From positions 186,001 through 250,000 of the forward strand of contig JASCOE010000003.1 in NCBI GenBank assembly GCA_029959285.1: a stretch of DNA of 64,000 nucleotides, read 5' to 3'. The DNA comes from Flavobacteriaceae bacterium PS02337. GTDB lineage: Bacteria > Bacteroidota > Bacteroidia > Flavobacteriales > Flavobacteriaceae. The notes under the pieces were generated by a model. It saw only the letters and a list, made by a program, of their open reading frames with translations, was not told the origin of the DNA and did no database searches. The stretch's first letter is position 1, and each line of letters starts with the position of its first letter. Positions 13,211 through 41,617 of the stretch are shown here, one piece after another. The position numbers and the translations under genes are program-made.

Positions 13211-14515
13211 TTATTCTGAAACCGCTTTTACTTTATGACCAAAAACTCCGAAAGAAAGAATAATCAAAAAGCAAACCAACGGAATAATATATCCAGACTG
13301 AATATCATCATGGTTCATATCGATTAAAGTTCCCATTCCGTACGGAATAATCGCACCTCCAACAATCGACATTACTAACCAAGAAGAACCAGTTTCTGTA
13401 TTCGATTTTAAACCTTTAATTCCTAAAGAAAAGATTGTCGGAAACATAATTGACATGAAGAATCCAATTCCTCCAAGAGCGTAGATAACAACGATTCCTG
13501 TACCGTAAATAGCAACAAGACAAAGAATAACACTCATTACACAATAAATAGAAAGTAAAACGTAATCTTTGACAAATTTTAAAAAGAATGTTCCAATAAA
13601 ACGTCCCGCCATAAAAAGGAAACCATAAATTCCTAAATAATATCCAGCTGTTTTTTCATCCAATCCAGCTCCTTGTTGCGCAATTCTGATGAAGAAACTT
13701 GTAATGCAAACTTGAGCTCCAACATAGAAAAATTGAGCAGCAACTCCCCAGCTTAAATGTCTGAATTTTAAAACAGAGAAAAATCCTGGTTTAACTTCAG
13801 CTTCGGTATGAGTTACTTTCATCGAAGGCAATTGTACAAAGTAGAATATAATGGCAACCAAAACTAAAATGCTTCCTAATACAATATAAGGCATTTTTAC
13901 AGAAGCCGCTTCACCTAATAAATAAGCCGCTTTTTCAGCCTCAGGCATTGCCGCCATTTGTTCTTTGGTATGGTTTGTTCCTGAAAGAATGAATAACGAG
14001 CCCACAATAGGAGCAACCATCGCAGCTAACCCGTTGAAAGAAGCCGCTAAATTTAATCTTTTAGAAGAAGATTCGGCCGGTCCTAATATCGCTGCGTATG
14101 GATTTGCACTTGTTTCTAATATGGTTAAACCACAACCAATTACAAATAAAGCGAATAAAAATAATTCATAAGTTCTAGTGTTTGCTGCTGGTACAAATAA
14201 AAATGCTCCAACGGCAAAAACTAATAAACCAGTTATAATACTGTTTTTATAACCAAATCTTTTAATTAGCATTCCCGCAGGAATTGCCATTATAAAATAA
14301 GCAAAGAATACAGAAGTATCAATTAAAGTAGATTGGCGGTTGTTTAATTCACACGCTTTTTTCAAGTGCGGAATCAAAACTGAATCTAAATTGTGGGCCA
14401 TTCCCCACAGAAAAAATAGGCATGTAACGAGAATAAAAGGCAGAAGATATTGTTTTTGATTTCCGCCTTCTGACGGCACTTCATGTTGATCGCCAGCTTG
14501 GTTTGTAATTTGCAT
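13211..14515 (-). CDS. fucP: L-fucose:H+ symporter FucP (MFS)
   Basis: A 434-residue, 12-helix MFS permease. Family features are LFFLWGMAHNLD...LIPHLKK in helix 1, the ILETSANPYA block (Glu equal to E135 of E. coli FucP), AQFFYVGAQVCITSFFIRIA, FMSIMFPTIFSLGIKGL and SSWLVMSIVGGAIIPYGMG. Compared with the E. coli sequence as I recall it, the proton-relay Asp46 position reads Ser45 here, with Asp44 just before it. It is the last gene of the leftward operon headed by the SBP/CoA-transferase pairs, and with the divergent fucose-type oxidation genes it points to L-fucose uptake. L-galactose or L-rhamnose transport is not excluded. Confidence 0.85.
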   Translation of the reverse strand: MQITNQAGDQHEVPSEGGNQKQYLLPFILVTCLFFLWGMAHNLDSVLIPHLKKACELNNRQSTLIDTSVFFAYFIMAIPAGMLIKRFGYKNSIITGLLVFAVGAFLFVPAANTRTYELFLFALFVIGCGLTILETSANPYAAILGPAESSSKRLNLAASFNGLAAMVAPIVGSLFILSGTNHTKEQMAAMPEAEKAAYLLGEAASVKMPYIVLGSILVLVAIIFYFVQLPSMKVTHTEAEVKPGFFSVLKFRHLSWGVAAQFFYVGAQVCITSFFIRIAQQGAGLDEKTAGYYLGIYGFLFMAGRFIGTFFLKFVKDYVLLSIYCVMSVILCLVAIYGTGIVVIYALGGIGFFMSIMFPTIFSLGIKGLKSNTETGSSWLVMSIVGGAIIPYGMGTLIDMNHDDIQSGYIIPLVCFLIILSFGVFGHKVKAVSE

Positions 14516-14628: not shown

Positions 14629-15069
14629 TTATTTCTTTTTCACTAAAAGTAAATGATCACATACCAAAACGACTTCACCGCGTTGGTTAATGATTTCTAC
14701 GTGTTCTGTTACAGTTCCCATTTCTGGATTTTTGGCTTCTCCTTTTTCAGAAATTGTAATTTCAGAATGAATAGTGTCGCCAATATGAACAGGTTTTACG
14801 AAACGCATTTTGTCGTAACCTCTAGAAAAAGCTTCAGGATTTATTTCTGATGCCGTTAATCCGATTCCGATGGCAAAAACCATTGTTCCGTGGGCAATTC
14901 TCTGTCCGAATGGCTGAGTTTTACACCATTCTTCATCCATGTGGTGCGGGAAGAAATCCCCAGTGTGTCCGGCGTGAACTACAAAATCAGTTTCTGTAAT
15001 CGTTCTGCCTAAAGTTACTCGTTTGTCGTCGATTTGATAATCTTCGAAAAAAGTCGATTTAAAATACAT
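14629..15069 (-). CDS. MaoC-family (hot-dog fold) enoyl-CoA hydratase/dehydratase
   Basis: A 146-residue single hot-dog domain. The hydratase-2 signature is seen as TGDFFPHH, giving catalytic D38 and H43, although the usual Asn two residues after the Asp is Phe40. G-x-R-I-A-H-G-T-M follows as the CoA/substrate loop. Family members add or remove water on CoA- or ACP-linked acyl chains. It sits between a Gfo/Idh/MocA oxidoreductase and fucP, downstream of two family III CoA-transferases, so a CoA-ester intermediate in this pathway is plausible. The actual substrate is unknown. Confidence 0.88.
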
Positions 15070-15167
15070 ATTATAGATATTTTTTGTCGGCCTTACTTTA
15101 AAAAATACGTTTGTTTTGAAGAAGGCTTAAATTTGTTTTTTTTTGGTTTTGAAATATAGTGTTTTAA

Positions 15168-16241
15168 TTACACTTCATCAAAAGAAATTCCACCGTTTTT
15201 ACTGCTCGCATAACAAGCTTCTACCACTTTCATAGTACCTAACACATCTTGAACGCTAGCAGATAATATTTCGTCAGAACCCTCTTTGTAACGCATCAAA
15301 TTAGACATTGCGCCAATAAAAGCTTCAGGAAACCATGAACCTTCTAATTTTACTTCTGTCCATTCGTATTCATTTTCATTATCTTTTTTCGGCAACGCAT
15401 ACTCAAAAACATCTGGCAAACCGTCAGGATAATTCATCAACAAGCCCATTTTTGCTTTAATCGCGCCTTTTGTTCCTTCCCATTTAATGTAACTTTCTTC
15501 GTGCTTTGGACCAAAATGATGATCGTGATTCGTATTGATTACAACATGTTTATCTTCTCCATAATCTAAAATAATCGTAGATCGGCTTGATGATAATTTT
15601 TTAAGCGGATGTTTCGCCGTTTTTGCCAGTACACTTTTAGGATTTCCAAGAAAAGATCGAATGCAATCAATATAATGAACACTGTGGAAAAGAATCTCCA
15701 ATCTAGGATGTTCTTTAATTAAAGGAAACAATTCCCAAGGTGTATTTACAGTTACTTTGAATTCTAGATCGTATAATTCTCCAATAATTCCTTGATCGAT
15801 TAAATATCTCGCCGCACTTACAAATGAAGCAAAACGCAGTTGAAAGTTAATGGCAGCAACTAAATTTTTTCTTTCGCAAACCGCTACAATTTCTCTTGCT
15901 TGAGCCAAATCATTTCCCATTGGTTTCTGAATCAAAACTGCAGCGCCATCTGGCAATTGTTCTAAAATTTCGATGTATTGATCAGGTAAAACCGTAATAT
16001 CGTAAACAGCATTTGATGGCGCATTTTTTACGGCATCAGCAACACTTTCAAAAACATGATCGATTTTGAATTGTTTCTGTAAATCATAAGCTTTTGAAAT
16101 CGTTCTGTTGGTTATACCAAAAACTTTAAAACCAGCCATTTCGTAAGCAGGAAGATGCGCATCTTTTACAATACCGCTCGCTCCAATAATTACAATGGGC
16201 TGTTCTGTTTGGGGAAGTAAAGGTTTATAGGGAATATTCAT
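15168..16241 (-). CDS. Gfo/Idh/MocA-family oxidoreductase
   Basis: A 357-residue NAD(P)-dependent oxidoreductase. The Rossmann start is IVIIGASGIVKDAHLPAY, the sugar-binding K is in LIQKPMGND (QKP in place of EKP), and the second domain carries FHSVHYIDCIRSFLG, where the His/Asp pair sits in the usual substrate site. Family members oxidise or reduce sugars and inositols at one hydroxyl. It is 33 nt downstream of a solute-binding-like gene and 98 nt upstream of the MaoC gene, so it belongs to the same leftward operon. The substrate is inferred only from context (deoxy-sugar or a sugar acid). Confidence 0.88.
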   Translation of the reverse strand: MNIPYKPLLPQTEQPIVIIGASGIVKDAHLPAYEMAGFKVFGITNRTISKAYDLQKQFKIDHVFESVADAVKNAPSNAVYDITVLPDQYIEILEQLPDGAAVLIQKPMGNDLAQAREIVAVCERKNLVAAINFQLRFASFVSAARYLIDQGIIGELYDLEFKVTVNTPWELFPLIKEHPRLEILFHSVHYIDCIRSFLGNPKSVLAKTAKHPLKKLSSSRSTIILDYGEDKHVVINTNHDHHFGPKHEESYIKWEGTKGAIKAKMGLLMNYPDGLPDVFEYALPKKDNENEYEWTEVKLEGSWFPEAFIGAMSNLMRYKEGSDEILSASVQDVLGTMKVVEACYASSKNGGISFDEV

Positions 16242-16274
16242 TTGTTCTATATTTTGAAATTAAGCCTGCCAAGT

Positions 16275-17531
16275 TTAATTTTTGACAGAGCCGTGTAATG
16301 TTGTTCCTTGACTTAGTTTTCTTATTTTATTTTGAGTTTCTTCTAAAAGTATTTCAGACGAAATATCAGTTTCAATAGCTTTTAAAACAGTGCCGTCAAT
16401 CAATTCGGCTACTTTTGGCCAGATTGGAGTTTGAGGTAATGTTAATGCATTTTCATGAAGCATTTCGAGTTTATGATAGAATGGAATCAAAGTATTAATT
16501 TCTGCATCTTTCCAAGTCGATTTTCTGCATCCAATTCCGCCTTCTGTGGTTAATAATTTATCACTTTCGGGCGTTGTTGCAAAACGTAAAAAATCATAAG
16601 CCAATTTTTTGTGTTTGCTTCCAGAACCAATGGTATACAACCAATATACATTTAAAGAAGCTGTTTTGTGACCTGGATCAGATGGGAGGGAAGTGATATC
16701 AATTTTTCCTTTCACTTTCGATTCTTCAATCACTTCAGCCATAGATGCAAATCCGAACCAGTTGATTGCCATTGCCGCTTGCCCTTCGGCGAAAGCCAAA
16801 CCTGCTTCAACCGAACCAAATTCTCTCGATTTTGGATGAACTGCATTTTTGTCATTGACCATTTTTCGATAAAAATCCAATGCTTTTATTGCCGCTTCGT
16901 TATGAATATCAATCTGATTTTTTTTGTTTAATAAAGAACCGCCGCGTGTCCATAATTGCAGACAGAAGTCAAAAACCATATTGTGTCCGTCAGGATAATT
17001 GGCAAAAACAGCACCGTATAAATTTTGTTCGGGACGATTAAAAAATGTGGCAATTTCTGTAAATTCCTGCCATGTTTTTGGCGTATCAAGTTCGTAACCA
17101 AACTGCTTTTTAAAATTCTCTTTTTCTGTTTCGTTTTCGAATAAATCTTTTCTGTAAATCAGACATTCTGGTCCATCGTGAAAAGGAAGTCCGAAAATGC
17201 CATTGCTTAATTTCTGCAAATGCAAAAGCGATTTATGCCATCCAAAAGGATAATTTTCAGGCGGATTTTCTCCAATTAATGAAAACAAATTAAGAACCGC
17301 ATTTTCGTTTGCAGCATCATAAATCCAATCGGTATTGATGTGCGCGATATCCCATTTTCCTTCTTTTAAACCTTTATCTGAAATTGTGGTTTCATATAAA
17401 TCATGAAGTTCTAATGCAACCATTTCCGCTTCAATCTTTATATTGTTTTGAAGTGAAAATGCATCCCATAATTTTCGAAGTGTACTTTCGAAAGGATCGA
17501 ATTTACGAACGGCGATTCTAATTTTTTCCAT
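16275..17531 (-). CDS. Solute-binding-protein-fold protein lacking a signal peptide (module 1)
   Basis: A 418-residue protein with the fold pattern of ABC sugar-binding proteins (SBP family 1): PFHDGPECLIYRKDLFE, DTPKTWQEFTEIA, QAAMAINWFGF and YWLYTIGSGSKHKKLAYDFLRF. It starts directly with the first core strand (MEKIRIAVRKFDP). There is no hydrophobic signal and no lipobox Cys, so it should stay in the cytoplasm. No ABC permease or ATPase lies nearby. Its ATG shares one base with the stop of a family III CoA-transferase (TAATG), showing tight translational coupling. A cytosolic binding or chaperone role for that enzyme's substrate is my inference. Confidence 0.85.
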   Translation of the reverse strand: MEKIRIAVRKFDPFESTLRKLWDAFSLQNNIKIEAEMVALELHDLYETTISDKGLKEGKWDIAHINTDWIYDAANENAVLNLFSLIGENPPENYPFGWHKSLLHLQKLSNGIFGLPFHDGPECLIYRKDLFENETEKENFKKQFGYELDTPKTWQEFTEIATFFNRPEQNLYGAVFANYPDGHNMVFDFCLQLWTRGGSLLNKKNQIDIHNEAAIKALDFYRKMVNDKNAVHPKSREFGSVEAGLAFAEGQAAMAINWFGFASMAEVIEESKVKGKIDITSLPSDPGHKTASLNVYWLYTIGSGSKHKKLAYDFLRFATTPESDKLLTTEGGIGCRKSTWKDAEINTLIPFYHKLEMLHENALTLPQTPIWPKVAELIDGTVLKAIETDISSEILLEETQNKIRKLSQGTTLHGSVKN

Positions 17532-18670
17532 TAACAGTCAATAAATTCTTTAATAATTTTCTCGTTGTCTTGACCCAGTTTTGGCGAACCTTTTTCTGAA
17601 GTCAGATATTCACCATCAATTTTTATCGGACAGCGCGTTGTTTTATAAGTGTATCCGTCCAACATTTCGACTTGCTGGGTAAAATTTAAAACTTTAAATC
17701 CATCTTCTGCAAATAACTGCTGATAGTTTAAAACTCCTGCACACCAAATGTCTGCTGGTTCTAAAATATCCAGCCAAAACTGTGTTTCCTGTGTTTGCAA
17801 ATGATTGGCGAGTATATTTTTGATTTCGTCTCTAAGCGTAAATTTATTTTCAGGAAAAGCCAACAAAGCATCACATTTTAGCAGAGAAGCCAAAACAGGA
17901 ATCGATCCCATTGCCAATGCTAAATAACCGTTTTTGGTTTTGTAAATTCCGTATGGCGCGCCCAAATAAGCGTGCGCGTTATTGGTTTTAGTTCGAACAG
18001 GCAATTCACCTCCGTCATTAAAGAAAGTGGTAATGGTTTCAAATTGAAAATCAAATGCCGATTCTAGCATACTTACTTGAATTTGTGCTCCGATATTATG
18101 AGTTGCTTTTCTATATAAAGCAGCTAAAATTCCTTGCGCTAAATGTGCGCCCGCAAGCATGTCTACAATCGACAATCCCATTGGAACTGGACCATCTTCT
18201 TGATTTCCGCTTAGCCAAGTTAAAGCTGTTAAAGATTGTAAAAGCAAATCTTGTCCTGGTAAATCTTTTAAATCTGGATGTTCTCCAAAACCTGAAATCG
18301 ATCCATAAATCACATTTGGATTAATGCTTTTTACGTCGTCATAACTCAAACCAATGCGTTCCATAACGCCGGGTCTGAAATTATGCATCACAACATCAGC
18401 TTTGGCTAATAATTTTTTTAATTTTTGAAGTTCCTCAGGCTGTTTGAAATCAATTGCAAATGATTCTTTGTTTCTGTTGATGGTATGAAAAACAGACGAT
18501 TCGCCGTTCATAATCAAATCAGAAGTATATAAAGTACGGCAGATATCTCCCGTTCCCGGTTTTTCAATTTTTATAACGCGCGCGCCCAAATCGGCCAGAC
18601 GCAAACTCGCCGACGGCCCCGAAAGAAACTGACTGAAATCTACAATTAAATAATCTTCTAATGGTTTCAT
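17531..18670 (-). CDS. Family III (CaiB/BaiF) CoA-transferase, module 1
   Basis: A 379-residue enzyme. N-terminal FSQFLSGPSASLRLADLGARVIKIE is the family CoA-binding start; INRNKESFAIDF, HNFRPGVMERIGL and IYGSISGFG follow. The catalytic Asp is D170 in GLSIVDMLAG, matching Asp169 of formyl-CoA:oxalate transferase. Members move CoA between organic acids. It is a close paralogue of the enzyme 172 nt upstream (same length of blocks, same D170), and its stop overlaps the start of a signal-less solute-binding-like gene by one base. Substrates cannot be told from sequence; a heterodimer with the paralogue is possible, as some family III enzymes are heteromeric. Confidence 0.9.
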   Translation of the reverse strand: MKPLEDYLIVDFSQFLSGPSASLRLADLGARVIKIEKPGTGDICRTLYTSDLIMNGESSVFHTINRNKESFAIDFKQPEELQKLKKLLAKADVVMHNFRPGVMERIGLSYDDVKSINPNVIYGSISGFGEHPDLKDLPGQDLLLQSLTALTWLSGNQEDGPVPMGLSIVDMLAGAHLAQGILAALYRKATHNIGAQIQVSMLESAFDFQFETITTFFNDGGELPVRTKTNNAHAYLGAPYGIYKTKNGYLALAMGSIPVLASLLKCDALLAFPENKFTLRDEIKNILANHLQTQETQFWLDILEPADIWCAGVLNYQQLFAEDGFKVLNFTQQVEMLDGYTYKTTRCPIKIDGEYLTSEKGSPKLGQDNEKIIKEFIDC

Positions 18671-18738
18671 TTTTTTTGTTTAACCGTTTTATTGTTTATT
18701 CGTTGAATCGTTTTCCTTAAAAAATTAAAATCTAATTT

Positions 18739-18823
18739 AATCTGCTAAAATCTTTTTGAATCTGCGTGAAATACTTTTGCACATAGATTTTTTCACGCAG
18801 ATTTGTGCAGATTAAAGCAGATT
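18739..18823. repeat. Intergenic palindromic repeat (AATCTGC family)
   Basis: 33-nt imperfect inverted arms at 18739-18771 and 18791-18823 are built from AATCTGC words and end in TCTGCGTGAAA / TTTCACGCAGA. It fills the gap between the two CoA-transferase genes. Relatives are at 40386, 55322 and 55477. Confidence 0.85.
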
Positions 18824-18842
18824 TTATTTAAGTTGTTGAGTA

Positions 18843-19991
18843 TTATTTAGCTTTAATAAACTCTTCGCTTATACTAAAATTATCTTGTCCTACTTTTGGT
18901 GCTGCTTTTTCACTTAATAAAATCTCACCGTCCAATTGTATCGGACTTCTGGTGGTTACCAAAGCTTCGCCTTCGGTATTTTTTACGGTTTGTTTTAGCT
19001 GTAATTCATTTACAAAAGATTGACTATCTAATTCTTTATAATTGAAAACTTTTCCGCACCAAATACCTTCTTTTTGAAGGATTTCAATCCAATAATCAGA
19101 AGTTTGGGTTTGAATTCTTTCACTTAAAATCGTTCTGATTTCATCTCTTTTTTCAAACCAAAGATGTTTATCAGCAAAAGCGTTTAAATCCAGTCCTAAC
19201 GTTTTTCCAATGAAAAGTAAATCGCCCATTGCAAGAGACAAAAAGCCGTCTTGTGTTTGGTAAACTCCGTAAGGAGCGCTTAAAAAAGCATGTGCACTTC
19301 CTTTAATATCGCCGCGTTCTGGTAATTGTCCGCCATCATTTAAGAAAGAAGTAATCGCTTCAAATTGCACATCGAGAATAGATTCTAGCAAACTGACTTC
19401 TACCAAAATACCTTTTTTAGTTTTGGCTCTTTTCAAAAGTGCCGCTAAAATTCCCTGTACAAAATGATTCCCGCACATTAAATCGGCTACAGCCAACCCA
19501 AAAGGAACTGGGCCTTGACTTTTGCGTCCGCTCAGCCAGCTTAATCCAGAAAGCGATTGTAATAACAAATCTTGTCCTGGCTTTTTTGCCCACGGACCTT
19601 CATTTCCGTAACCTGTAATGGTTCCGTAAATAATCTGCGGATTAATAGAAAGCGTATTTTCAAAATCTAATCCGATTTTTTCCATCACTCCAGGTCTGAA
19701 ATTATGTGTCATAATATCAGCCTTTTCGATTAGTTTTTTGATTAAAACCAAATCGTCTGGATTTTTTAAATCGGCTGCAAATGATTCTTTATTTCTGTTA
19801 ATCGTATGAAAAAGCAAACTGCTGTCGTCTACAAATAAATCTTTGATGCTCAATTGTCTGCAAGCTTCACCTTTTACTGGACGTTCGATTTTGATGACGC
19901 GCGCGCCCAAATCAGCCAGTTTTAAACCCGCTGAAGGTCCTGCTAAAAATTGGCAGAATTCTAGAACAATTAATCCTTCTAAAGGTCTCAT
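18843..19991 (-). CDS. Family III (CaiB/BaiF) CoA-transferase, module 2
   Basis: The start is the ATG at 19989-19991 giving MRPLEGLIVLEFCQF. A longer in-frame extension to 20213 encodes a basic, unrelated leader that only shadows the overlapping gene. The 382-residue product has FLAGPSAGLKLADLGARVIKIE, INRNKESFAADL, HNFRPGVMEKIGL, and D170 in GLAVADLMCG as the catalytic residue. It is very like the downstream paralogue, especially around NDGGQLPER and SAPYGVYQ, so a tandem duplication is likely. Its start overlaps the stop of the solute-binding-like gene (ATGA, 4 nt), the mirror arrangement of module 1. Confidence 0.9.
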   Translation of the reverse strand: MRPLEGLIVLEFCQFLAGPSAGLKLADLGARVIKIERPVKGEACRQLSIKDLFVDDSSLLFHTINRNKESFAADLKNPDDLVLIKKLIEKADIMTHNFRPGVMEKIGLDFENTLSINPQIIYGTITGYGNEGPWAKKPGQDLLLQSLSGLSWLSGRKSQGPVPFGLAVADLMCGNHFVQGILAALLKRAKTKKGILVEVSLLESILDVQFEAITSFLNDGGQLPERGDIKGSAHAFLSAPYGVYQTQDGFLSLAMGDLLFIGKTLGLDLNAFADKHLWFEKRDEIRTILSERIQTQTSDYWIEILQKEGIWCGKVFNYKELDSQSFVNELQLKQTVKNTEGEALVTTRSPIQLDGEILLSEKAAPKVGQDNFSISEEFIKAK

Positions 19992-21136
19992 ACGGTCTGG
20001 ATTTTTAGAGATTCCGCGTAAAGCGAATTCATTTCTTCCAATACTTTTAATTCGTCTCCGCCATTCATCAAATAATTGCGAACCACGTCTCCAGCATGAT
20101 CTTGGAAATACATATGACCGTAATATCTTGGACGAAGGAAAGCGCGCTCTAAAGCAGGTAAAGTATTTTTGAAATAATCGTGTGTTACACCATTTATTCT
20201 TTCGCTTTTCCAAGCTTGCAAATGACCTGGCTGACCGCCATTATCCGTATAAATATTCTGTTGAACTTGTGAAGAACATGTAAATTCGGCATATTTTATG
20301 GCAGTTTCAATATGTTCACTAAAAGATGAAACAGCCAAACCAGTTCCGCCCAAAGACGAAATCATCGGATTATCATTCAATTTTACTAAATCATAAAAAT
20401 GTAAAAGGTTTTGGCTGTAGCCAGCGCGAGAATAATTAGAATAACCGTAAGCAAAAGGACAATATGCAATTTCATCTGAATTGACCATTGCTTCATAAAC
20501 CTGAATAGGGTTACGATTAAAGTTGGCAGGAGCAATTAATTGAGCTAATTCTCTAAACATTTGAAGCGCTTTGATTCCAGTAGTTTCAGAAATCACTTTT
20601 TCTTCCGAAAGAAAAGGAGCTTCGCCCAAACTACAGCAAAACATATAAAAACTCATTAAAACATCTACGGGAATTCCAGCAAAGGCAACTAAACCTTTTT
20701 TAGCTAATGCCAATAAATCGTCATAAGTTTTGGGAACTTCTAAATTATTTTTTTCTAAAATATCCAAGCGGGCAGAAGCTACCGGAGTTGCCGCATCGAT
20801 TGGCAAAGCCCATAATTTGTCGTGAAAAACATAACTTCCGTATGATTTTCCAACTGTATTAATTTCTTGATCTTTAATATATTCGTTTGATAAATAATCA
20901 GATAACGGAAGAATCGCTTTAGTTTGCGCTCCAAAACCTGTCCAAGGATGATCAATAACCAATAAATCAAATCTTTTGGCTAAATCTTCGATAGAGGCAT
21001 CCGCAAATTCTTGTAAGCTTCTTTTCTCCCAAGAAATTTCAACATCAGGATGTAGTTCTGTAAAACGTTGCGATGTGGCAACCATAGGAAGCAAACCTCT
21101 TGTATGGTTCCAAGTTATGCCTTTTAATTTTATCAT
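19988..21136 (-). CDS. Solute-binding-protein-fold protein lacking a signal peptide (module 2)
   Basis: I choose the ATG at 21136 (MIKLKGITWNHTRG). An in-frame ATG at 21196 would place the start against the promoter and add residues with no family match. The 382-residue product follows ABC sugar-binding proteins: FTELHPDVEISWEKRSL, FDLLVIDHPWTG, LPIDAATPVASARLDIL, VPKTYDDLLAL, and YCPFAYGYSNYSR. No signal peptide or lipobox Cys is present. It is the first gene of the leftward operon, 57-64 nt after a good TTG-N19-TANNTTTG promoter, and is coupled by a 4-nt overlap to a CoA-transferase. Function unknown; see module 1. Confidence 0.83.
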   Translation of the reverse strand: MIKLKGITWNHTRGLLPMVATSQRFTELHPDVEISWEKRSLQEFADASIEDLAKRFDLLVIDHPWTGFGAQTKAILPLSDYLSNEYIKDQEINTVGKSYGSYVFHDKLWALPIDAATPVASARLDILEKNNLEVPKTYDDLLALAKKGLVAFAGIPVDVLMSFYMFCCSLGEAPFLSEEKVISETTGIKALQMFRELAQLIAPANFNRNPIQVYEAMVNSDEIAYCPFAYGYSNYSRAGYSQNLLHFYDLVKLNDNPMISSLGGTGLAVSSFSEHIETAIKYAEFTCSSQVQQNIYTDNGGQPGHLQAWKSERINGVTHDYFKNTLPALERAFLRPRYYGHMYFQDHAGDVVRNYLMNGGDELKVLEEMNSLYAESLKIQTV

Positions 21137-21199
21137 TTTTATATAGGAATTTTTGAGTCGTGAAATCGATTGAAATAATAAATGTAAAAAATACAATTA

Positions 21200-21229
21200 C
21201 AAAAGTAGAAATAAGATTTAAATGCACAA
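21200..21229 (-). promoter_or_regulatory. Promoter of the leftward fucP/CoA-transferase operon
   Basis: On the minus strand TTG (21229-21227), a 19-nt spacer, and TACTTTTG (21207-21200) match the Bacteroidota consensus exactly in spacing and sequence. The start codon at 21136 lies about 60 nt downstream. Confidence 0.8.
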
Positions 21230-21383: not shown

Positions 21384-21391
21384 TACTTTTG
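21384..21391 (+). promoter_or_regulatory. -7 element of the rightward catabolic operon
   Basis: TACTTTTG fits TANNTTTG. No TTG lies 19 nt upstream, so this side may need an activator or be the weaker promoter. The leader to the ATG at 21503 is about 105 nt. Confidence 0.6.
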
Positions 21392-21395
21392 TAAT

Positions 21396-21408
21396 TGTAA
21401 ATTTTACA
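21396..21408. promoter_or_regulatory. Candidate operator TGTAAA-N-TTTACA
   Basis: A perfect 6+1+6 palindrome lies right after the rightward -7 box, over the expected transcription start. A degenerate copy (TGTAAAAAATACA) occupies the mirror place at 21183-21195. This position suits a repressor. Confidence 0.65.
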
Positions 21409-21502
21409 TTTATTAATTTTACTTTACTCTTTTTAAAGAATTTTGAATTTATAAATGAAGAATCACAACAAATGATTAACTAACAACTAAAAATATACGA
21501 TT

Positions 21503-22357
21503 ATGAAATTAATACGTTTTGGAGAAATCGGAAAAGAGAAACCTGGTGTTTTGATTGGAGAAAAAAGATATGATGTTTCTTCGATTGTAACGGATTTTAA
21601 CGAAAGTTTCTTTGAAGAAAACGGATTAGAAAAATTACAAAAAGCATTAGAAAGTAATCCAACTTTGCCGGAAGTTAATGCTTCGGTACGTTTGGGTTCG
21701 CCAGTGGCAAGACCTTCAAAAATTATCTGCATTGGTTTAAATTATATTGATCACTGTAAAGAAACAAACGCTCCGATTCCGACAGAACCTATTATTTTCT
21801 TCAAATCAACAACTTCTTTATGCGGTCCCGATGATGATTTGATTATTCCAAAAAATAGCGAAAAAACAGACTGGGAAGTGGAATTGGCTTTTATCGTTGG
21901 TAAAAAAGCAAGTTATGTTGAAGAAGCGGAGGCTTTAGATTATGTGGCTGGTTATGCTTTGCTAAATGATTACAGCGAAAGAGCTTTTCAGCTGGAGCGT
22001 GGCGGACAATGGGCAAAAGGAAAAGGAAGCGACACTTTTGCGCCTTTTGGACCATTTTTGGCTACGAAAGACGAAATCGCCGATGTGGACAATTTAAAAA
22101 TGTGGCTGACTGTAAACGGTAAAAAATACCAAGACAGCAATACCTTAAATTTAGTTTTCAAAATTCCTTATCTGGTACATTATTTAAGCCAGTTTATGAC
22201 TTTGCTTCCGGGAGATATCATTAGTACAGGAACGCCTCCGGGAGTTGGTTTAGGAATTAAACCAGATCCGATATATATTAAAGCGGGCGATGTTATTGAA
22301 TTAGGAATTGAAGGTTTAGGAACTAGTAAGCAAAAGGCTGTAGCTTATAAAAAGTGA
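21503..22357 (+). CDS. FAH-family hydrolase, probable 2,4-diketo-3-deoxy-L-fuconate (or -rhamnonate) hydrolase
   Basis: A 284-residue fumarylacetoacetate-hydrolase superfamily enzyme. An N-terminal 70-residue cap is followed by CIGLNYIDHCKETNAPIP, FFKSTTSLCGPDDDLIIP, and the metal-ligand region DWEVELAFIVGKKA with downstream D in NDYSER. The C-terminal part carries GDIISTGTPPGVGLG. Length and motifs match the enzyme that splits 2,4-diketo-3-deoxy-L-fuconate to pyruvate and L-lactate. It is first in the rightward operon with dehydrogenases and a lactonase, which supports that role over other FAH reactions. Confidence 0.82.
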   Translation: MKLIRFGEIGKEKPGVLIGEKRYDVSSIVTDFNESFFEENGLEKLQKALESNPTLPEVNASVRLGSPVARPSKIICIGLNYIDHCKETNAPIPTEPIIFFKSTTSLCGPDDDLIIPKNSEKTDWEVELAFIVGKKASYVEEAEALDYVAGYALLNDYSERAFQLERGGQWAKGKGSDTFAPFGPFLATKDEIADVDNLKMWLTVNGKKYQDSNTLNLVFKIPYLVHYLSQFMTLLPGDIISTGTPPGVGLGIKPDPIYIKAGDVIELGIEGLGTSKQKAVAYKK

Positions 22358-22528: not shown

Positions 22529-23542
22529 ATGAAATATATAGTTTGTGAAAAACCGCAGGAATTTTTATTAAAAGAAACCAGTATTCCAGAACCAAAAGAG
22601 GGTGAAGTTTTATTGAAAATTAAAAGAATCGGAATCTGCGGAACTGATATTCACGCTTTTGGCGGAACTCAACCATATTTTGAATATCCAAGAATTTTGG
22701 GCCACGAATTGGCGGCTGAATATGTCAAAGGAAATGCTGAAGGTTTCAAGCCGGGAGATAAAGTAACTTTTATTCCGTATTTTAACTGTGGAAAATGTGT
22801 TGCGTGCCGAAACGGATTAACAAACTGCTGTGTGAATATCAAAGTTTTCGGCGTTCATATTGATGGCGGAATGGCTGAATATGTGTCGATTCCAGAACAA
22901 TATTTATTGCACGGACAAGGTTTAGATTATGATGAATTGGCTTTGGTTGAACCTTTGGCAATTGCAGCTCACGGAGTTAGAAGAGCAGCTGTAAAACCAA
23001 CGGACACCGTTTTGGTAATGGGAGCAGGACCAATCGGAATTGGTTTGATTCAGTTTGCTAAAATTGCGGGTGCAAAAGTAATCGTAATGGATATCAACGA
23101 TTACAGATTAAACTTCTGTAAAACAGAACTAAATGCAGATGAAACGATTAATCCGTTAAACGATGATGTTGCACAAAAGTTAGGTGAATTGACAAACGGC
23201 GATATGGCAAATGTGGTTATTGATGCGACTGGAAATCAGAAAGTAATGAATAGCGCTTTTAATTATATTTCGCATGGCGGAAGATTTGTTTTGGTTGGAC
23301 TTCAAAAAGGTGAATTAAGTTTTAGTCATCCAGATTTCCACAAAAGAGAATCGACTTTGATGAGCAGCCGAAATGCTACAATCGAAGATTTCGAATATGT
23401 AATGAAATGTTTGAAAGAAGGGAAAATCGATCCGAAAAAGTACATCACGCACAGAACAAGTTTTGCTGAAATGATTACTGATTTTGGAAAATTGATTGAT
23501 CCGAAGAATAATGTTATTAAGGCGTTGATTGAAATAGAATAA
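22529..23542 (+). CDS. Zinc-dependent alcohol dehydrogenase (MDR family), sugar or sugar-acid oxidation
   Basis: A 337-residue medium-chain dehydrogenase. GICGTDIHAFGG gives the catalytic-zinc Cys, GHELAAEY the His-Glu pair, and CGKCVACRNGLTNCC the four structural-zinc cysteines. VLVMGAGPIGIGLIQFAKIAGAKVIVMDIND is the NAD-binding fold with an acidic residue after strand 2, indicating NAD rather than NADP. In this operon it most likely oxidises 2-keto-3-deoxy-L-fuconate at C4, supplying the FAH hydrolase. Direct oxidation of the free sugar is the alternative, since the SDR encoded next could take either step. Confidence 0.85.
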   Translation: MKYIVCEKPQEFLLKETSIPEPKEGEVLLKIKRIGICGTDIHAFGGTQPYFEYPRILGHELAAEYVKGNAEGFKPGDKVTFIPYFNCGKCVACRNGLTNCCVNIKVFGVHIDGGMAEYVSIPEQYLLHGQGLDYDELALVEPLAIAAHGVRRAAVKPTDTVLVMGAGPIGIGLIQFAKIAGAKVIVMDINDYRLNFCKTELNADETINPLNDDVAQKLGELTNGDMANVVIDATGNQKVMNSAFNYISHGGRFVLVGLQKGELSFSHPDFHKRESTLMSSRNATIEDFEYVMKCLKEGKIDPKKYITHRTSFAEMITDFGKLIDPKNNVIKALIEIE

Positions 23543-23606: not shown

Positions 23607-24404
23607 ATGGATTTAAACTTAAAAAATAAAATAGTTGTCGTTTCTGGTTCGGCTGGAAAAGAAGGCAGTATCGGAGAAACGATTGTGAATAGATTGGCAG
23701 ATGAAGGAGCGATTCCGGTTTTAGTTGACAGAAATGCAAGAGGTTTCGAATACGTAGAAAGACTTCAAAAAAGAGGTGTTAATTCCTTATTTGTGCAGAC
23801 CGACGTAACCGATCCAGTTGCGATAGAAAATGCTGTAAAAGTAATTGGAGCTAAATACGGTAGAATTGATGCCATCATAAATAATGTTGGTGTAAATGAC
23901 GGTGCAGGCTTAGATTCTAGCTACGAGGAATTTATGGATTCTTTGAAATTGAATGTCGTTAGTTATTTTCTTCTAGCTAAATACACATTGCCATATTTAA
24001 AAGAATCAAAAGGAAATATTTTAAATATTGGTTCAAAAGTCGCTTTAACAGGGCAGGGCGGAACTTCTGGTTACGCTGCCGCGAAAGGTGGAGTTTTGGG
24101 CTTAACAAGAGAATGGGCAGTAGATTTGATTCAGTACGGAATTCGTTCAAACGCGATTATTATTGCAGAAAGTTATACGCCTGCTTATGAAGATTGGATT
24201 AAAACATTGCCAGATGGAGAGGCGGTCTTGAAAAAAATTAGTAAAACGATTCCATTAGAAAACCGAATGACAAAAACGGAAGAAATTGCAGATACAGCAC
24301 TTTTTATCATTTCTGAAAAATCATCGCATACTACAGGACAATTTGTTTTTGTGGATGGAGGTTACGTACATTTAGACCGTGCTTTAATCAGCGATGTTAA
24401 TTAA
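23607..24404 (+). CDS. SDR dehydrogenase, probable L-fucose dehydrogenase
   Basis: A 265-residue short-chain dehydrogenase. The nucleotide loop is SGSAGKEGSIG (an expanded TGxxxGIG), with NNVG at 92-95 and the catalytic set S143, Y156 and K160 (GYAAAK). The C-terminal tail after the cofactor-loop G-Q-F-V-F-V-D-G-G reads YVHLDRAL, an ending I associate with L-fucose dehydrogenases of the SDR type. It would oxidise L-fucose to L-fuconolactone, which the next gene's product hydrolyses. A 2-keto-3-deoxy-fuconate dehydrogenase role is the alternative. The next gene begins 6 nt later. Confidence 0.82.
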   Translation: MDLNLKNKIVVVSGSAGKEGSIGETIVNRLADEGAIPVLVDRNARGFEYVERLQKRGVNSLFVQTDVTDPVAIENAVKVIGAKYGRIDAIINNVGVNDGAGLDSSYEEFMDSLKLNVVSYFLLAKYTLPYLKESKGNILNIGSKVALTGQGGTSGYAAAKGGVLGLTREWAVDLIQYGIRSNAIIIAESYTPAYEDWIKTLPDGEAVLKKISKTIPLENRMTKTEEIADTALFIISEKSSHTTGQFVFVDGGYVHLDRALISDVN

Positions 24405-24410
24405 AAAGTT

Positions 24411-25247
24411 ATGAGTAAAAGAATTGATTCCCATCAGCATTTTTGGAAGTTTGATCCTGTTCGAGACAGCTGGATTGATGAAACGATGCAAAATATTCAA
24501 AGAGATTTTCTTCCTGAAGATTTACAGCCATTATTAAATTCGAATCAGTTTGAAGGCTGTGTTGCAGTTCAAGCTAGCCAATCGGAAGAAGAAACTCAAT
24601 TTTTATTGGATTTAGCTTCTAAAAATGATTTCATAAAAGGAGTTGTCGGCTGGGTAGATTTACGAAGTGAGAATATTGAAGAACGCTTGCAATTCTTTTC
24701 AGATCAAAAAAAGCTGAAAGGTTTTAGACATGTTGTGCAAGGTGAAGCTGATGATTTTATGTATGGAACAGAATTCAGAAATGGAATTCAAGCTTTAAAG
24801 CCATTTAATTACACTTACGATATATTGATTTTCGAGCGTCAATTACCAGCTGCAATAAGTTTGGTGAAAGATTTTCCAAACCAAAAGTTTGTAATCGATC
24901 ATATTGCAAAACCAGATATTAAATCGGAAACTATTTATTCTTGGAAAAGCGGCATTGAAGAAATTGCAAAATACGACAATGTTTGGTGTAAAATCTCTGG
25001 AATGGTCACAGAAGCCGATTGGAAAAACTGGAAACCTGAAGATTTAAAACCTTATTTGGATGTTATTTTTGAAAATTTTTCAATTGATAAATTAATGTAT
25101 GGTTCAGATTGGCCAGTTTTAAATGTAGCTTCTGATTATGATGAAGTGGTAAAAACTTTAGAAGATTATATTTCGAAGCTTTCTGTTGAAGACCAAAATA
25201 AGATTTGGTTTGAGAATGCGAATGCTTTCTATAGTTTAAATGACTAA
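24411..25247 (+). CDS. Amidohydrolase_2 family lactonase (L-fuconolactonase-like)
   Basis: A 278-residue TIM-barrel amidohydrolase of the COG3618 type. RIDSHQHFWKF carries the first metal-site histidines, VAVQASQ and GVVGWVDL follow, then KGFRHVVQGE, FVIDHIAKPDI, WCKISGM and LMYGSDWPV with the conserved Asp. Members open the lactone ring of L-fuconolactone or L-rhamnonolactone. It ends the rightward operon, 6 nt after the SDR, and completes the sugar-to-acid half of the route. A hairpin terminator follows at 25269. Confidence 0.86.
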   Translation: MSKRIDSHQHFWKFDPVRDSWIDETMQNIQRDFLPEDLQPLLNSNQFEGCVAVQASQSEEETQFLLDLASKNDFIKGVVGWVDLRSENIEERLQFFSDQKKLKGFRHVVQGEADDFMYGTEFRNGIQALKPFNYTYDILIFERQLPAAISLVKDFPNQKFVIDHIAKPDIKSETIYSWKSGIEEIAKYDNVWCKISGMVTEADWKNWKPEDLKPYLDVIFENFSIDKLMYGSDWPVLNVASDYDEVVKTLEDYISKLSVEDQNKIWFENANAFYSLND

Positions 25248-40492: not shown

Positions 40493-41617
40493 ATGAAAAT
40501 TAAATACTTACTAATCGCCATTTCAGCACTTGCCCTAACCAGCTGTGCAACCAAATACAAGAAAAGAGAAATTACCGATAGTGTAATGCAAGAGATTTAC
40601 GAAGAAATCAAAACGCCTTATAAATACGGTTTGGTAATGGTTCCTACAGACAACTCATACAAAATGGATTGTCCGAGTGTGTTTAGAAAAGACGGGAAAT
40701 GGTACATGACGTATTTAATTTATGACGGAAGAGGTTATGAAACCTGGTTAGCAGAAAGTGACAATCTTTTAGATTGGAAATATCTAGGAAAAGTAATGTC
40801 TTTCTCAGAAAATGAAAAACATTGGGATGTTAATCAAAAAGCAGGATATATTTCGTTGCAAGATCCAACTTGGGGCGGAAGTTACGAATGGGAAAAATAC
40901 GATGATAAATACTGGATGAGTTATTTTGGCGGAGACAGCAAAGGTTACGAAGCGGGCGTTTTATCAATCGGAATGGCGTATACCAAAGAAGCACCAACAA
41001 AACCACACGAATTTCAAAGATTAGAAAATCCGGTTTTAACCCCAAAAGATAAAGATGCTAAATGGTGGGATAATAGTACGATGTACAAAAACAGCGTAAT
41101 TCGTGATAAAGACAAAGTTACAGGACACAATTTCATCATGTACTATAATGCACGTGGCGATAGTTTAAATCCTGCCAAAGGTGCTGAGCGTATTGCAATG
41201 GCTGTATCAAACGACATGAAAACATGGAAGCGTTATGGTGATAAACCATTAATCAATCATCATAAAGGAATTTCGGGAGATGCTTATATTCAGCGTATTA
41301 ATGATACTTGGGTAATGTTCTATTTTGGAGCTTTCTGGACGGGTTGGAATCAAGGTGCATTTAACCGTTTTGCCGTTTCAAATGATTTAGTAAACTGGAC
41401 CGACTGGAAAGGTGAGGATTTAGTTAAATCATCTGAACCTTACGATGATATGTTTGCGCATAAATCATTTGTTGTAAAACATGATGGCGTTGTGTATCAT
41501 TTTTACTGTGCCGTTAACAAAGCAGAACAAAGAGGAATTGCAATTGCTACTTCTAAAGATTTAGGAAAAAGCAAATTGAATTTTGTAGCACCGCCGGAGA
41601 AAAAGGCGAAAAAATAG
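40493..41617 (+). CDS. Beta-propeller glycosidase-like lipoprotein (GH43/GH130-like)
   Basis: A 374-residue lipoprotein, lipobox A-L-T-S-C (C18). Propeller strands begin MVPTDNSYKMDCPSVFRKDGKWYMTYLIYDGRGYETWLAESDNLLDWKY, where the D-C-P-S start matches the first-blade Asp of this clan. Others are WMSYFGGDSKGYEAG, HNFIMYYNARGD and MAVSNDMKTWKRY. Probably anchored at the outer membrane or periplasmic face, cleaving a pectin side-chain linkage; substrate unknown. Its stop codon lies inside a heptanucleotide repeat (41616-41678). Confidence 0.75.
   Translation: MKIKYLLIAISALALTSCATKYKKREITDSVMQEIYEEIKTPYKYGLVMVPTDNSYKMDCPSVFRKDGKWYMTYLIYDGRGYETWLAESDNLLDWKYLGKVMSFSENEKHWDVNQKAGYISLQDPTWGGSYEWEKYDDKYWMSYFGGDSKGYEAGVLSIGMAYTKEAPTKPHEFQRLENPVLTPKDKDAKWWDNSTMYKNSVIRDKDKVTGHNFIMYYNARGDSLNPAKGAERIAMAVSNDMKTWKRYGDKPLINHHKGISGDAYIQRINDTWVMFYFGAFWTGWNQGAFNRFAVSNDLVNWTDWKGEDLVKSSEPYDDMFAHKSFVVKHDGVVYHFYCAVNKAEQRGIAIATSKDLGKSKLNFVAPPEKKAKK

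Follow-up and report, generated by a model that had tools for sequence, protein, structure and literature searches.

The window analyzed here is a stretch of 64,000 nucleotides from Flavobacteriaceae bacterium PS02337 (assembly GCA_029959285.1, contig JASCOE010000003.1, positions 186,001 to 250,000). On its minus strand, it carries a cassette in which the genes of two solute-binding-like proteins (SBP1 and SBP2) adjoin those of two family III (CaiB/BaiF) CoA-transferases (CoAT1 and CoAT2). The genes are, in their order of reading:

19988..21136, minus strand: SBP2, a signal-less solute-binding-like protein of the MalE fold, 382 amino acids (Pfam SBP_bac_8/SBP_bac_1)
18843..19991, minus strand: CoAT2, family III (CaiB/BaiF) CoA-transferase with D170 (Pfam CoA_transf_3)
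17531..18670, minus strand: CoAT1, family III CoA-transferase with D170 (Pfam CoA_transf_3)
16275..17531, minus strand: SBP1, a second signal-less protein of the MalE fold, 418 amino acids (Pfam SBP_bac_8/SBP_bac_1)
15168..16241, minus strand: Gfo/Idh/MocA oxidoreductase (Gfo; Pfam GFO_IDH_MocA), mostly found in the cassette yet separable from it
14629..15069, minus strand: MaoC-type hydratase (Pfam MaoC_dehydratas)
13211..14515, minus strand: FucP-type L-fucose:H+ symporter (Pfam MFS_1; TIGR00885, 363.7 bits for a cut-off of 280.4)

The order on the minus strand is thus SBP2-CoAT2-CoAT1-SBP1-Gfo-MaoC-FucP. SBP2 and CoAT2 overlap by 4 nucleotides (ATGA), and CoAT1 and SBP1 by 1 nucleotide (TAATG). 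When the open reading frames (ORFs) were re-derived, the gene order and both junctions came out as an earlier note on this DNA had described them. The same was true of the Gfo/Idh/MocA, MaoC and FucP genes downstream in the same direction, according to the minus-strand ORFs and their Pfam matches, and of the absence of an ABC permease or ATPase gene from the cassette and its neighbours, the region that was checked. Against PRK10133, the FucP-type protein scored 328.7 bits, short of the cut-off of 427. A repeat-bearing spacer of 172 nucleotides (18671-18842) parts CoAT2 from CoAT1, so the SBP2-CoAT2 and CoAT1-SBP1 pairs may not form one tight transcript. This spacer contains two families of direct repeats and inverted repeats of 38 nucleotides (79% complementary), a possible hairpin.

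The pairing of SBP and CoA-transferase genes is widespread. SBP2 was present in 16 of 296 sampled Bacteroidota genomes, and a CoA-transferase gene adjoined it in 15 of them. SBP1 was found at 51-100% identity in 10 of the 296 genomes; 8 further matches were only 20-28% identical, and one of the three inspected adjoins genes that look, by eye, like permeases. Of the first nine related loci to be read, eight had the order SBP2-CoAT2-CoAT1-SBP1-Gfo-MaoC, and the ninth (G286) had SBP2 elsewhere on the contig. A scan of 84,980 species, with one genome per species, gave at least 577 relatives of SBP2. In the best 80, which are mostly from Bacteroidota, a CoA-transferase gene lay at most 400 bases from SBP2 in 79, with a 4-nucleotide overlap in 45 of these 79 when the start of the longest ORF was used, and SBP1 adjoined a CoA-transferase gene in 67 of 68 cases. 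Plasmid records carry the pairing to alpha- and betaproteobacteria. SBP2 stood directly beside a CoA-transferase gene in 18 of 21 plasmid loci, hand-picked from 146 plasmid records with a match, and such pairs were seen in Persicobacter (two), Rufibacter, Croceibacterium, Sinorhizobium (several), Ensifer, Martelella, Qingshengfaniella, Labrenzia, Roseateles, Ponticoccus, Variovorax, Shinella, Azospirillum and Rhizobium jaguaris. On a plasmid of Rhizobium sp. Q54, the two are separated by a crotonase gene. Looser links were found in Streptomyces, with the CoA-transferase gene three genes away from SBP2, and in the haloarchaeon Halostagnicola, where SBP1 lies near, not adjacent to, a CoA-transferase gene, together with AMP-binding, MaoC, Gfo, L-rhamnose mutarotase and fucosidase genes. 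The genome search that the earlier note had proposed thus shows an association that recurs across phyla, and an arrangement peculiar to a single locus was rejected. Database records name such proteins solute-binding or ABC substrate-binding.

Both SBPs were said to lack an export signal, and this was borne out across the family. With our own hydropathy rule, used in place of SignalP and without scoring a lipobox for the SBPs, a signal was detected in none of 67 SBP1 proteins (of the 68 in the best 80 loci) and in 2 of the 76 SBP2 proteins (of 80) whose N-terminal motif was located. None of the 18 annotated SBP starts in the plasmid records looked signalled either. A similar rule called 10 of 11 controls signalled (ten importer binding proteins and one SusD), and the single miss seems due to a late annotated start. 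The longest possible ORF of SBP2 in the window would begin at a TTG 20 codons upstream (MYFLHLLFQSISRLKNSYIK), with no charged residue before its hydrophobic part, and stops interrupt this upstream stretch in sister loci, L020 and L021 among them. In the closely related loci L048 and L050, a common upstream in-frame ATG would add a hydrophobic stretch to SBP2. A hidden upstream signal peptide was rejected, as no conserved upstream start adds one in the SBP1 or the SBP2 loci. We infer that SBP1 and SBP2 are located in the cytosol.

Importer genes were rarely found near the pair. Homologues with adjacent ABC transporters in most genomes had been named as an outcome that would speak against the idea; among the best 80 relatives, only 5 (L082, L116, L121, L124, L127) had an ABC gene match in their stretch. 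In the plasmid loci with importers, the importer mostly has its own binding protein, which is signalled. The possibility that the SBPs serve as receptors of a neighbouring importer was therefore rejected in general, given these separate binding proteins and the missing signal, with the SBP1 of Croceibacterium, considered below, as the exception to the lack of a cognate permease and ATPase alongside.

Both proteins nevertheless have the SBP_bac_1/SBP_bac_8 fold of importer receptors, and fail two other defining features of these receptors, namely the signal peptide and the cognate permease and ATPase genes alongside. The AlphaFold2 models were of high mean pLDDT (93.7 for SBP2, 93.1 for SBP1). 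The top Foldseek match of SBP2 was maltose-bound MalE3 (TMq 0.84), and those of SBP1 were CUT1-type sugar receptors; both models resemble such receptors over their full length, the ligand-bound ones best, with 14-23% identity among the matches listed. A close solved relative was rejected, the best matches being distant import receptors. SBP1 and SBP2 share 21% identity across about half of their length. They form separate clades (support 100/98 for SBP1, 100/100 for SBP2) in a midpoint-rooted tree whose only controls were 11 ABC receptors, the grouping of these receptors being itself unsupported (52/55). T8, W9, R13, D57, D62, D114, Y230, Y232, Y235 and R335 of SBP2 were invariant over 18 diverse rows, and H11, H63 and R337 nearly so. 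In SBP1, R9, E15, H118, E122, H183 and R196 were invariant over 11 rows, R196 being only nearly so when 25 rows were compared.

The CoA-transferases and hydratases keep the residues expected for catalysis. CoAT1 and CoAT2 match CoA_transf_3 over the full length, and the catalytic aspartate described as intact is indeed residue 170 in both, in one alignment column that holds D in 153 of 153 CoA-transferase ORFs above 250 bits (loci L048-L127). Neither protein reached an NCBIfam equivalog cut-off; the NCBIfam names were therefore rejected. The site GD(F/Y)(F/Y)PHH was found in 65 of 65 MaoC ORFs above 100 bits in the same loci, and both crotonase glutamates were kept in the 5 crotonases read; we take these motifs to be the catalytic residues.

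The smallest recurring unit was delimited by a locus that lacks it. The G206 locus (L254) keeps, in the same order, FucP, Gfo, a short-chain dehydrogenase/reductase (SDR; 2-keto-3-deoxy-fuconate dehydrogenase-like), a FAH-family gene, an alcohol dehydrogenase, L-fucose dehydrogenase and the lactonase. It lacks SBP2, CoAT2, CoAT1 and SBP1, and also MaoC, which sits beyond Gfo in its relatives, and neither SBP was found in the whole G206 genome. Gfo is therefore separable from the cassette, being retained with FucP where the SBPs and CoA-transferases are missing, and the hydratase belongs to the unit, since the non-adjacent MaoC is missing together with them. A MaoC or an enoyl-CoA hydratase accompanies the CoA-transferase in most of the best 80 loci, so that the two form one unit, as expected of a CoA-dependent dehydration. 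Ten of these 80 combine SBP2-CoAT-CoAT with genes for crotonase and aldehyde dehydrogenase and have neither SBP1 nor MaoC, and a proteobacterial group has CoAT-SBP2-crotonase. Taken with the joint absence in G206, these variants indicate that the smallest set is one SBP, one CoA-transferase and one hydratase. The idea of the earlier note, in which a cytosolic SBP-like protein may bind or present a substrate for CoA activation in a CoA-dependent deoxy-sugar-acid branch, is thus partly supported: signal-less SBPs are tied to CaiB-type CoA-transferases in an L-fucose setting. It is to be amended as to its members, the unit being SBP, CoA-transferase and hydratase without Gfo. In Azospirillum, Streptomyces and Variovorax, the CoA-transferase, SBP2 and hydratase genes lie beside FAH-family genes, and no known-type aldonate dehydratase was found in these stretches. 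The Azospirillum and Streptomyces clusters also have an aldehyde dehydrogenase of the NADP+ type, as in the oxidative pentose route. The 2-keto-3-deoxy-D-xylonate dehydratases studied in one report are annotated as FAH family (PMC7374468). The 15-kb stretch of Rhizobium sp. Q54 (L291) contains LacI, MaoC, a TRAP importer, CoAT, crotonase and SBP2, and no sugar-oxidation gene was named in it.

Upstream of SBP2, a divergent operon and two copies of a promoter-like element connect the cassette with L-fucose:

21176..21207, minus strand: promoter/operator-like element of the SBP2 operon, TACTTTTGTAATTGTATTTTTTACATTTATTA
21384..21415, plus strand: second copy, in reverse orientation, upstream of the fucose-oxidation operon
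21503..22357, plus strand: FAH-family hydrolase (best match 2,4-didehydro-3-deoxy-L-rhamnonate hydrolase, 376 bits, below the cut-off of 500)
22529..23542, plus strand: Zn-dependent alcohol dehydrogenase
23607..24404, plus strand: L-fucose dehydrogenase (NF052481, 359 bits for a cut-off of 300)
24411..25247, plus strand: lactonase-like amidohydrolase (best match L-fucono-1,5-lactonase, 269 bits, below the cut-off of 400)

Genes of the oxidative L-fucose pathway are thus present at the locus, the dehydrogenase and FucP exceeding a cut-off and the lactonase and FAH proteins staying below theirs. The pathway comprises L-fucose dehydrogenase, fuconolactonase and fuconate dehydratase, according to a published account (PMC11378808). 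L-fucose dehydrogenase was found in 43 of the 296 genomes, in all 10 with SBP1 (Fisher p = 1.6e-9) and in 14 of 16 with SBP2, G107 and G269 being without it (p = 2.3e-11), both p values ignoring phylogeny. Within the genus, SBP1 was present in 7 of 8 genomes with this dehydrogenase and in none of 10 without (p = 2.5e-4). The 32-nucleotide element (TACTTTTGTAATTGTAWWWTTTACATTTATTA) occurs once ahead of each divergent operon with zero mismatches to the pattern, and 100 shuffles gave no such occurrence; the two copies are nearly identical and face outward between the operons. It contains a TGTA-N5-TACA palindrome and TAnnTTTG, the Bacteroidota -7 box. When up to 6 substitutions were allowed, 15 of the 29 Flavobacterium SBP2 loci scanned had a divergent pair 197-209 nucleotides apart. 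Five others had a single copy and the remaining 9 no copy, L063 among the latter being cut off upstream. The G206 locus has a divergent pair too (3 and 1 mismatches). No copy was found in the scanned loci of other genera or in 489,028 bases of control loci. We infer that the SBP2 operon and the fucose-oxidation operon are co-regulated. In view of the dehydrogenase co-occurrence and the shared promoter-like element, the cassette belongs with L-fucose oxidation.

The wider neighbourhood in the window includes a gene judged by eye to be GH28-like and, at 40493-41617, a partial match to a beta-D-glucuronidase/beta-L-arabinofuranosidase family (542 bits, cut-off 1800), which hints at a rhamnogalacturonan-II-like pectin locus downstream. 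Elsewhere, cassettes also lie near RhaT, fucosidase and sulfatase genes.

In the aldonate pathway, only the aldonate bears a 3-hydroxyl that hydratases of this type remove, and the dehydration of carnitine follows the same logic of a CoA-transferase and a hydratase of the 3-hydroxyacyl-CoA type. We tentatively propose, at somewhat less than even chance, that the cassette encodes a branch of sugar-acid (aldonate) catabolism which runs through CoA thioesters in the cytosol and accompanies L-fucose oxidation, with the SBPs as putative substrate-binding subunits. The family III CoA-transferase would put CoA on L-fuconate or a closely related sugar acid, the product of the sugar dehydrogenase and lactonase, and the thioester would acidify the C2 proton. 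MaoC, or crotonase in the sister clusters, may then take off the C3 hydroxyl as water, yielding a 2-keto-3-deoxy acid once released, while a second or the same CoA-transferase would pass CoA back to the next acid, as CaiB/CaiD do for carnitine. SBP1 and SBP2, possibly former import receptors, would serve the CoA-transferase as cytosolic subunits holding the sugar acid in its open-chain form. The more general picture, in which a CoA-transferase has captured an import receptor as its acid-binding subunit for aldonyl-CoA dehydration in bacteria and haloarchaea, the receptor fold being recruited twice (SBP1 and SBP2), is possible and rather more doubtful.

Neither the cassette nor the fucose operon of the window contains a gene recognised as a fuconate dehydratase. 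A second fucose operon without cassette lies on contig C11 of the same genome (G000; L151, about 649,500-655,000), with L-fucose dehydrogenase, a UxaA-type dehydratase, an SDR, a FAH-family protein 83% identical to that of the window, and a possible mutarotase. The labels KDF-DH, fucose-type UxaA and uronate-type UxaA are our own, given from neighbours and similarity.

Several observations weigh against the proposed branch. A UxaA- or enolase-type candidate fuconate dehydratase was found in 8 of the 10 SBP1 genomes (G000, G170, G025, G222, G154, G080, G138, G286). In the other two, G202 and G021, UxaA is of the uronate type only and nothing resembling the annotated L-fuconate dehydratase was found, which at first favoured a cassette that replaces this enzyme; G021 also has one unassigned enolase-family frame of 424 amino acids. 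Conversely, G206 and G118 keep the fucose operon without SBP1 or SBP2. A search of these two that covered the UxaA family and, from the enolase family, a single L-fuconate dehydratase protein gave only uronate-type UxaA and no dehydratase candidate; IlvD/EDD was searched in the window's own genome only. Among 23 non-Bacteroidota loci, 11 have an aldonate dehydratase of a known type close to the module and 12, two of them one locus in two strains, show none with ten queries. Also, SBP2 of Microvirga has no CoA-transferase gene in the stretch read, the SBP2 of L120/G286 has none adjacent, with an IclR gene beside it in L120, and in Croceibacterium the SBP1 gene runs directly into an ABC permease gene by overlap, the arrangement expected of an importer's receptor; this importer also has its own receptor gene. 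Genomes with the module thus do not generally lack another candidate dehydratase for the same acid. The candidates in 8 of 10 genomes, together with G206 and G118, which lack cassette SBPs and dehydratase alike, indicate that the cassette is no mere substitute for an absent fuconate dehydratase, and this replacement was rejected; fuconate dehydration need not depend on the cassette or be explained by it.

This distribution of dehydratases makes a different or additional acid a serious rival. The module could handle another acid that arrives with L-fucose, beside an ordinary fuconate dehydratase; 2-O-methyl-fuconate, L-galactonate, D-arabinonate, L-rhamnonate or a polysaccharide-derived acyl group are candidates. 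The separate dehydratase candidates favour this explanation, as do the GH28-like gene, the weak glycosidase match and the RhaT, fucosidase and sulfatase genes near cassettes, while the shared promoter-like element and the L-fucose dehydrogenase, lactonase-like and FAH genes fit L-fucose itself, and we give this explanation a low probability, on a par with that of the next. The SBPs might themselves be enzymes built on the SBP fold, e.g., a dehydratase, epimerase or lyase of the branch working beside the CoA-transferase, in the way that MqnA/MqnD and THI5 use this fold. The strictly conserved charged and polar residues in diverse SBP1 and SBP2 rows would suit such a role; however, orthologous receptors of a single ligand would be conserved too, no catalytic motif is known, and the predicted folds match ordinary, preferably ligand-bound, sugar receptors over the full length, so that we consider catalysis by the SBPs improbable.

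The resemblance to ligand-bound receptors would equally suit cytosolic sensors or buffers of the sugar acid, which would regulate the CoA-transferases or transcription without taking part in catalysis. The Microvirga SBP2 without adjacent CoA-transferase and the SBP2 beside IclR in L120 point the same way; however, the 4-nucleotide overlap of SBP2 and CoA-transferase genes in 45 of 79 loci suits a subunit better, and many loci have separate IclR, LacI or AraC regulators. A sensor thus seems quite unlikely to us. Finally, the SBPs may be ordinary receptors that leave the cytoplasm without a classical signal and serve an importer encoded elsewhere. Their fold, their Pfam families and the Croceibacterium overlap would agree with this; however, two families lack a signal across phyla, importers in the same clusters mostly have their own signalled receptors, and the SBP genes are coupled to those of CoA-transferases, which leaves export very improbable.

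Signal-less SBPs beside CoA-transferase genes in L-fucose-type clusters of many soil and marine bacteria point to an undescribed CoA-based step of sugar breakdown. MalE-family binding proteins are seen as catching food outside the cytoplasm; two apparently cytosolic clades coupled to CoA-transferases would mean that the MalE fold was reused as a metabolic subunit. If aldonate-CoA dehydration takes place, CoA-thioester chemistry would join sugar-acid catabolism. The proposal would also give a function to hundreds of proteins, and partly explain the use of fucose-rich plant and algal polysaccharides.

The earlier note knew of no description of an SBP-CoA-transferase system, and likewise our searches of open-access papers, judged in part by the titles and starts of abstracts listed, showed none.

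Several known systems share single features with the cassette. The CUT1-type ABC sugar-binding proteins (MalE3, SmoF, trehalose/maltose-binding protein) have the same fold. Unlike them, the cassette SBPs have no signal peptide and no obligate importer, and are coupled to a CoA-transferase. MqnA/MqnD and THI5 are, like the cassette SBPs in their use of the fold, SBP-fold proteins without export, in their case enzymes; to our knowledge, they belong to different SBP families and have no CoA-transferase partner. In Bordetella and relatives, TctC/Bug genes lie beside CaiB genes, an adjacency of binding protein and CoA-transferase as here, although Bug proteins are of a different family and have signal peptides. 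The oxidative L-fucose pathway shares its locus and a promoter-like element with the cassette, and we know of no CoA step in it. The best solved relatives of CoAT1 are YfdE, formyl-CoA transferases and succinate--hydroxymethylglutarate CoA-transferase, with the aspartate kept. As in the cassette, CaiB/CaiD combine a family III CoA-transferase with a hydratase and cycle CoA between acids; BaiF/BaiE and FldA/FldBC are reportedly further pairs of a CaiB-type enzyme and a dehydratase, and we know of no SBP-like partner in any of the three. Unlike these systems, the cassette lies in sugar clusters and joins one or two CoA-transferases with up to two SBPs.

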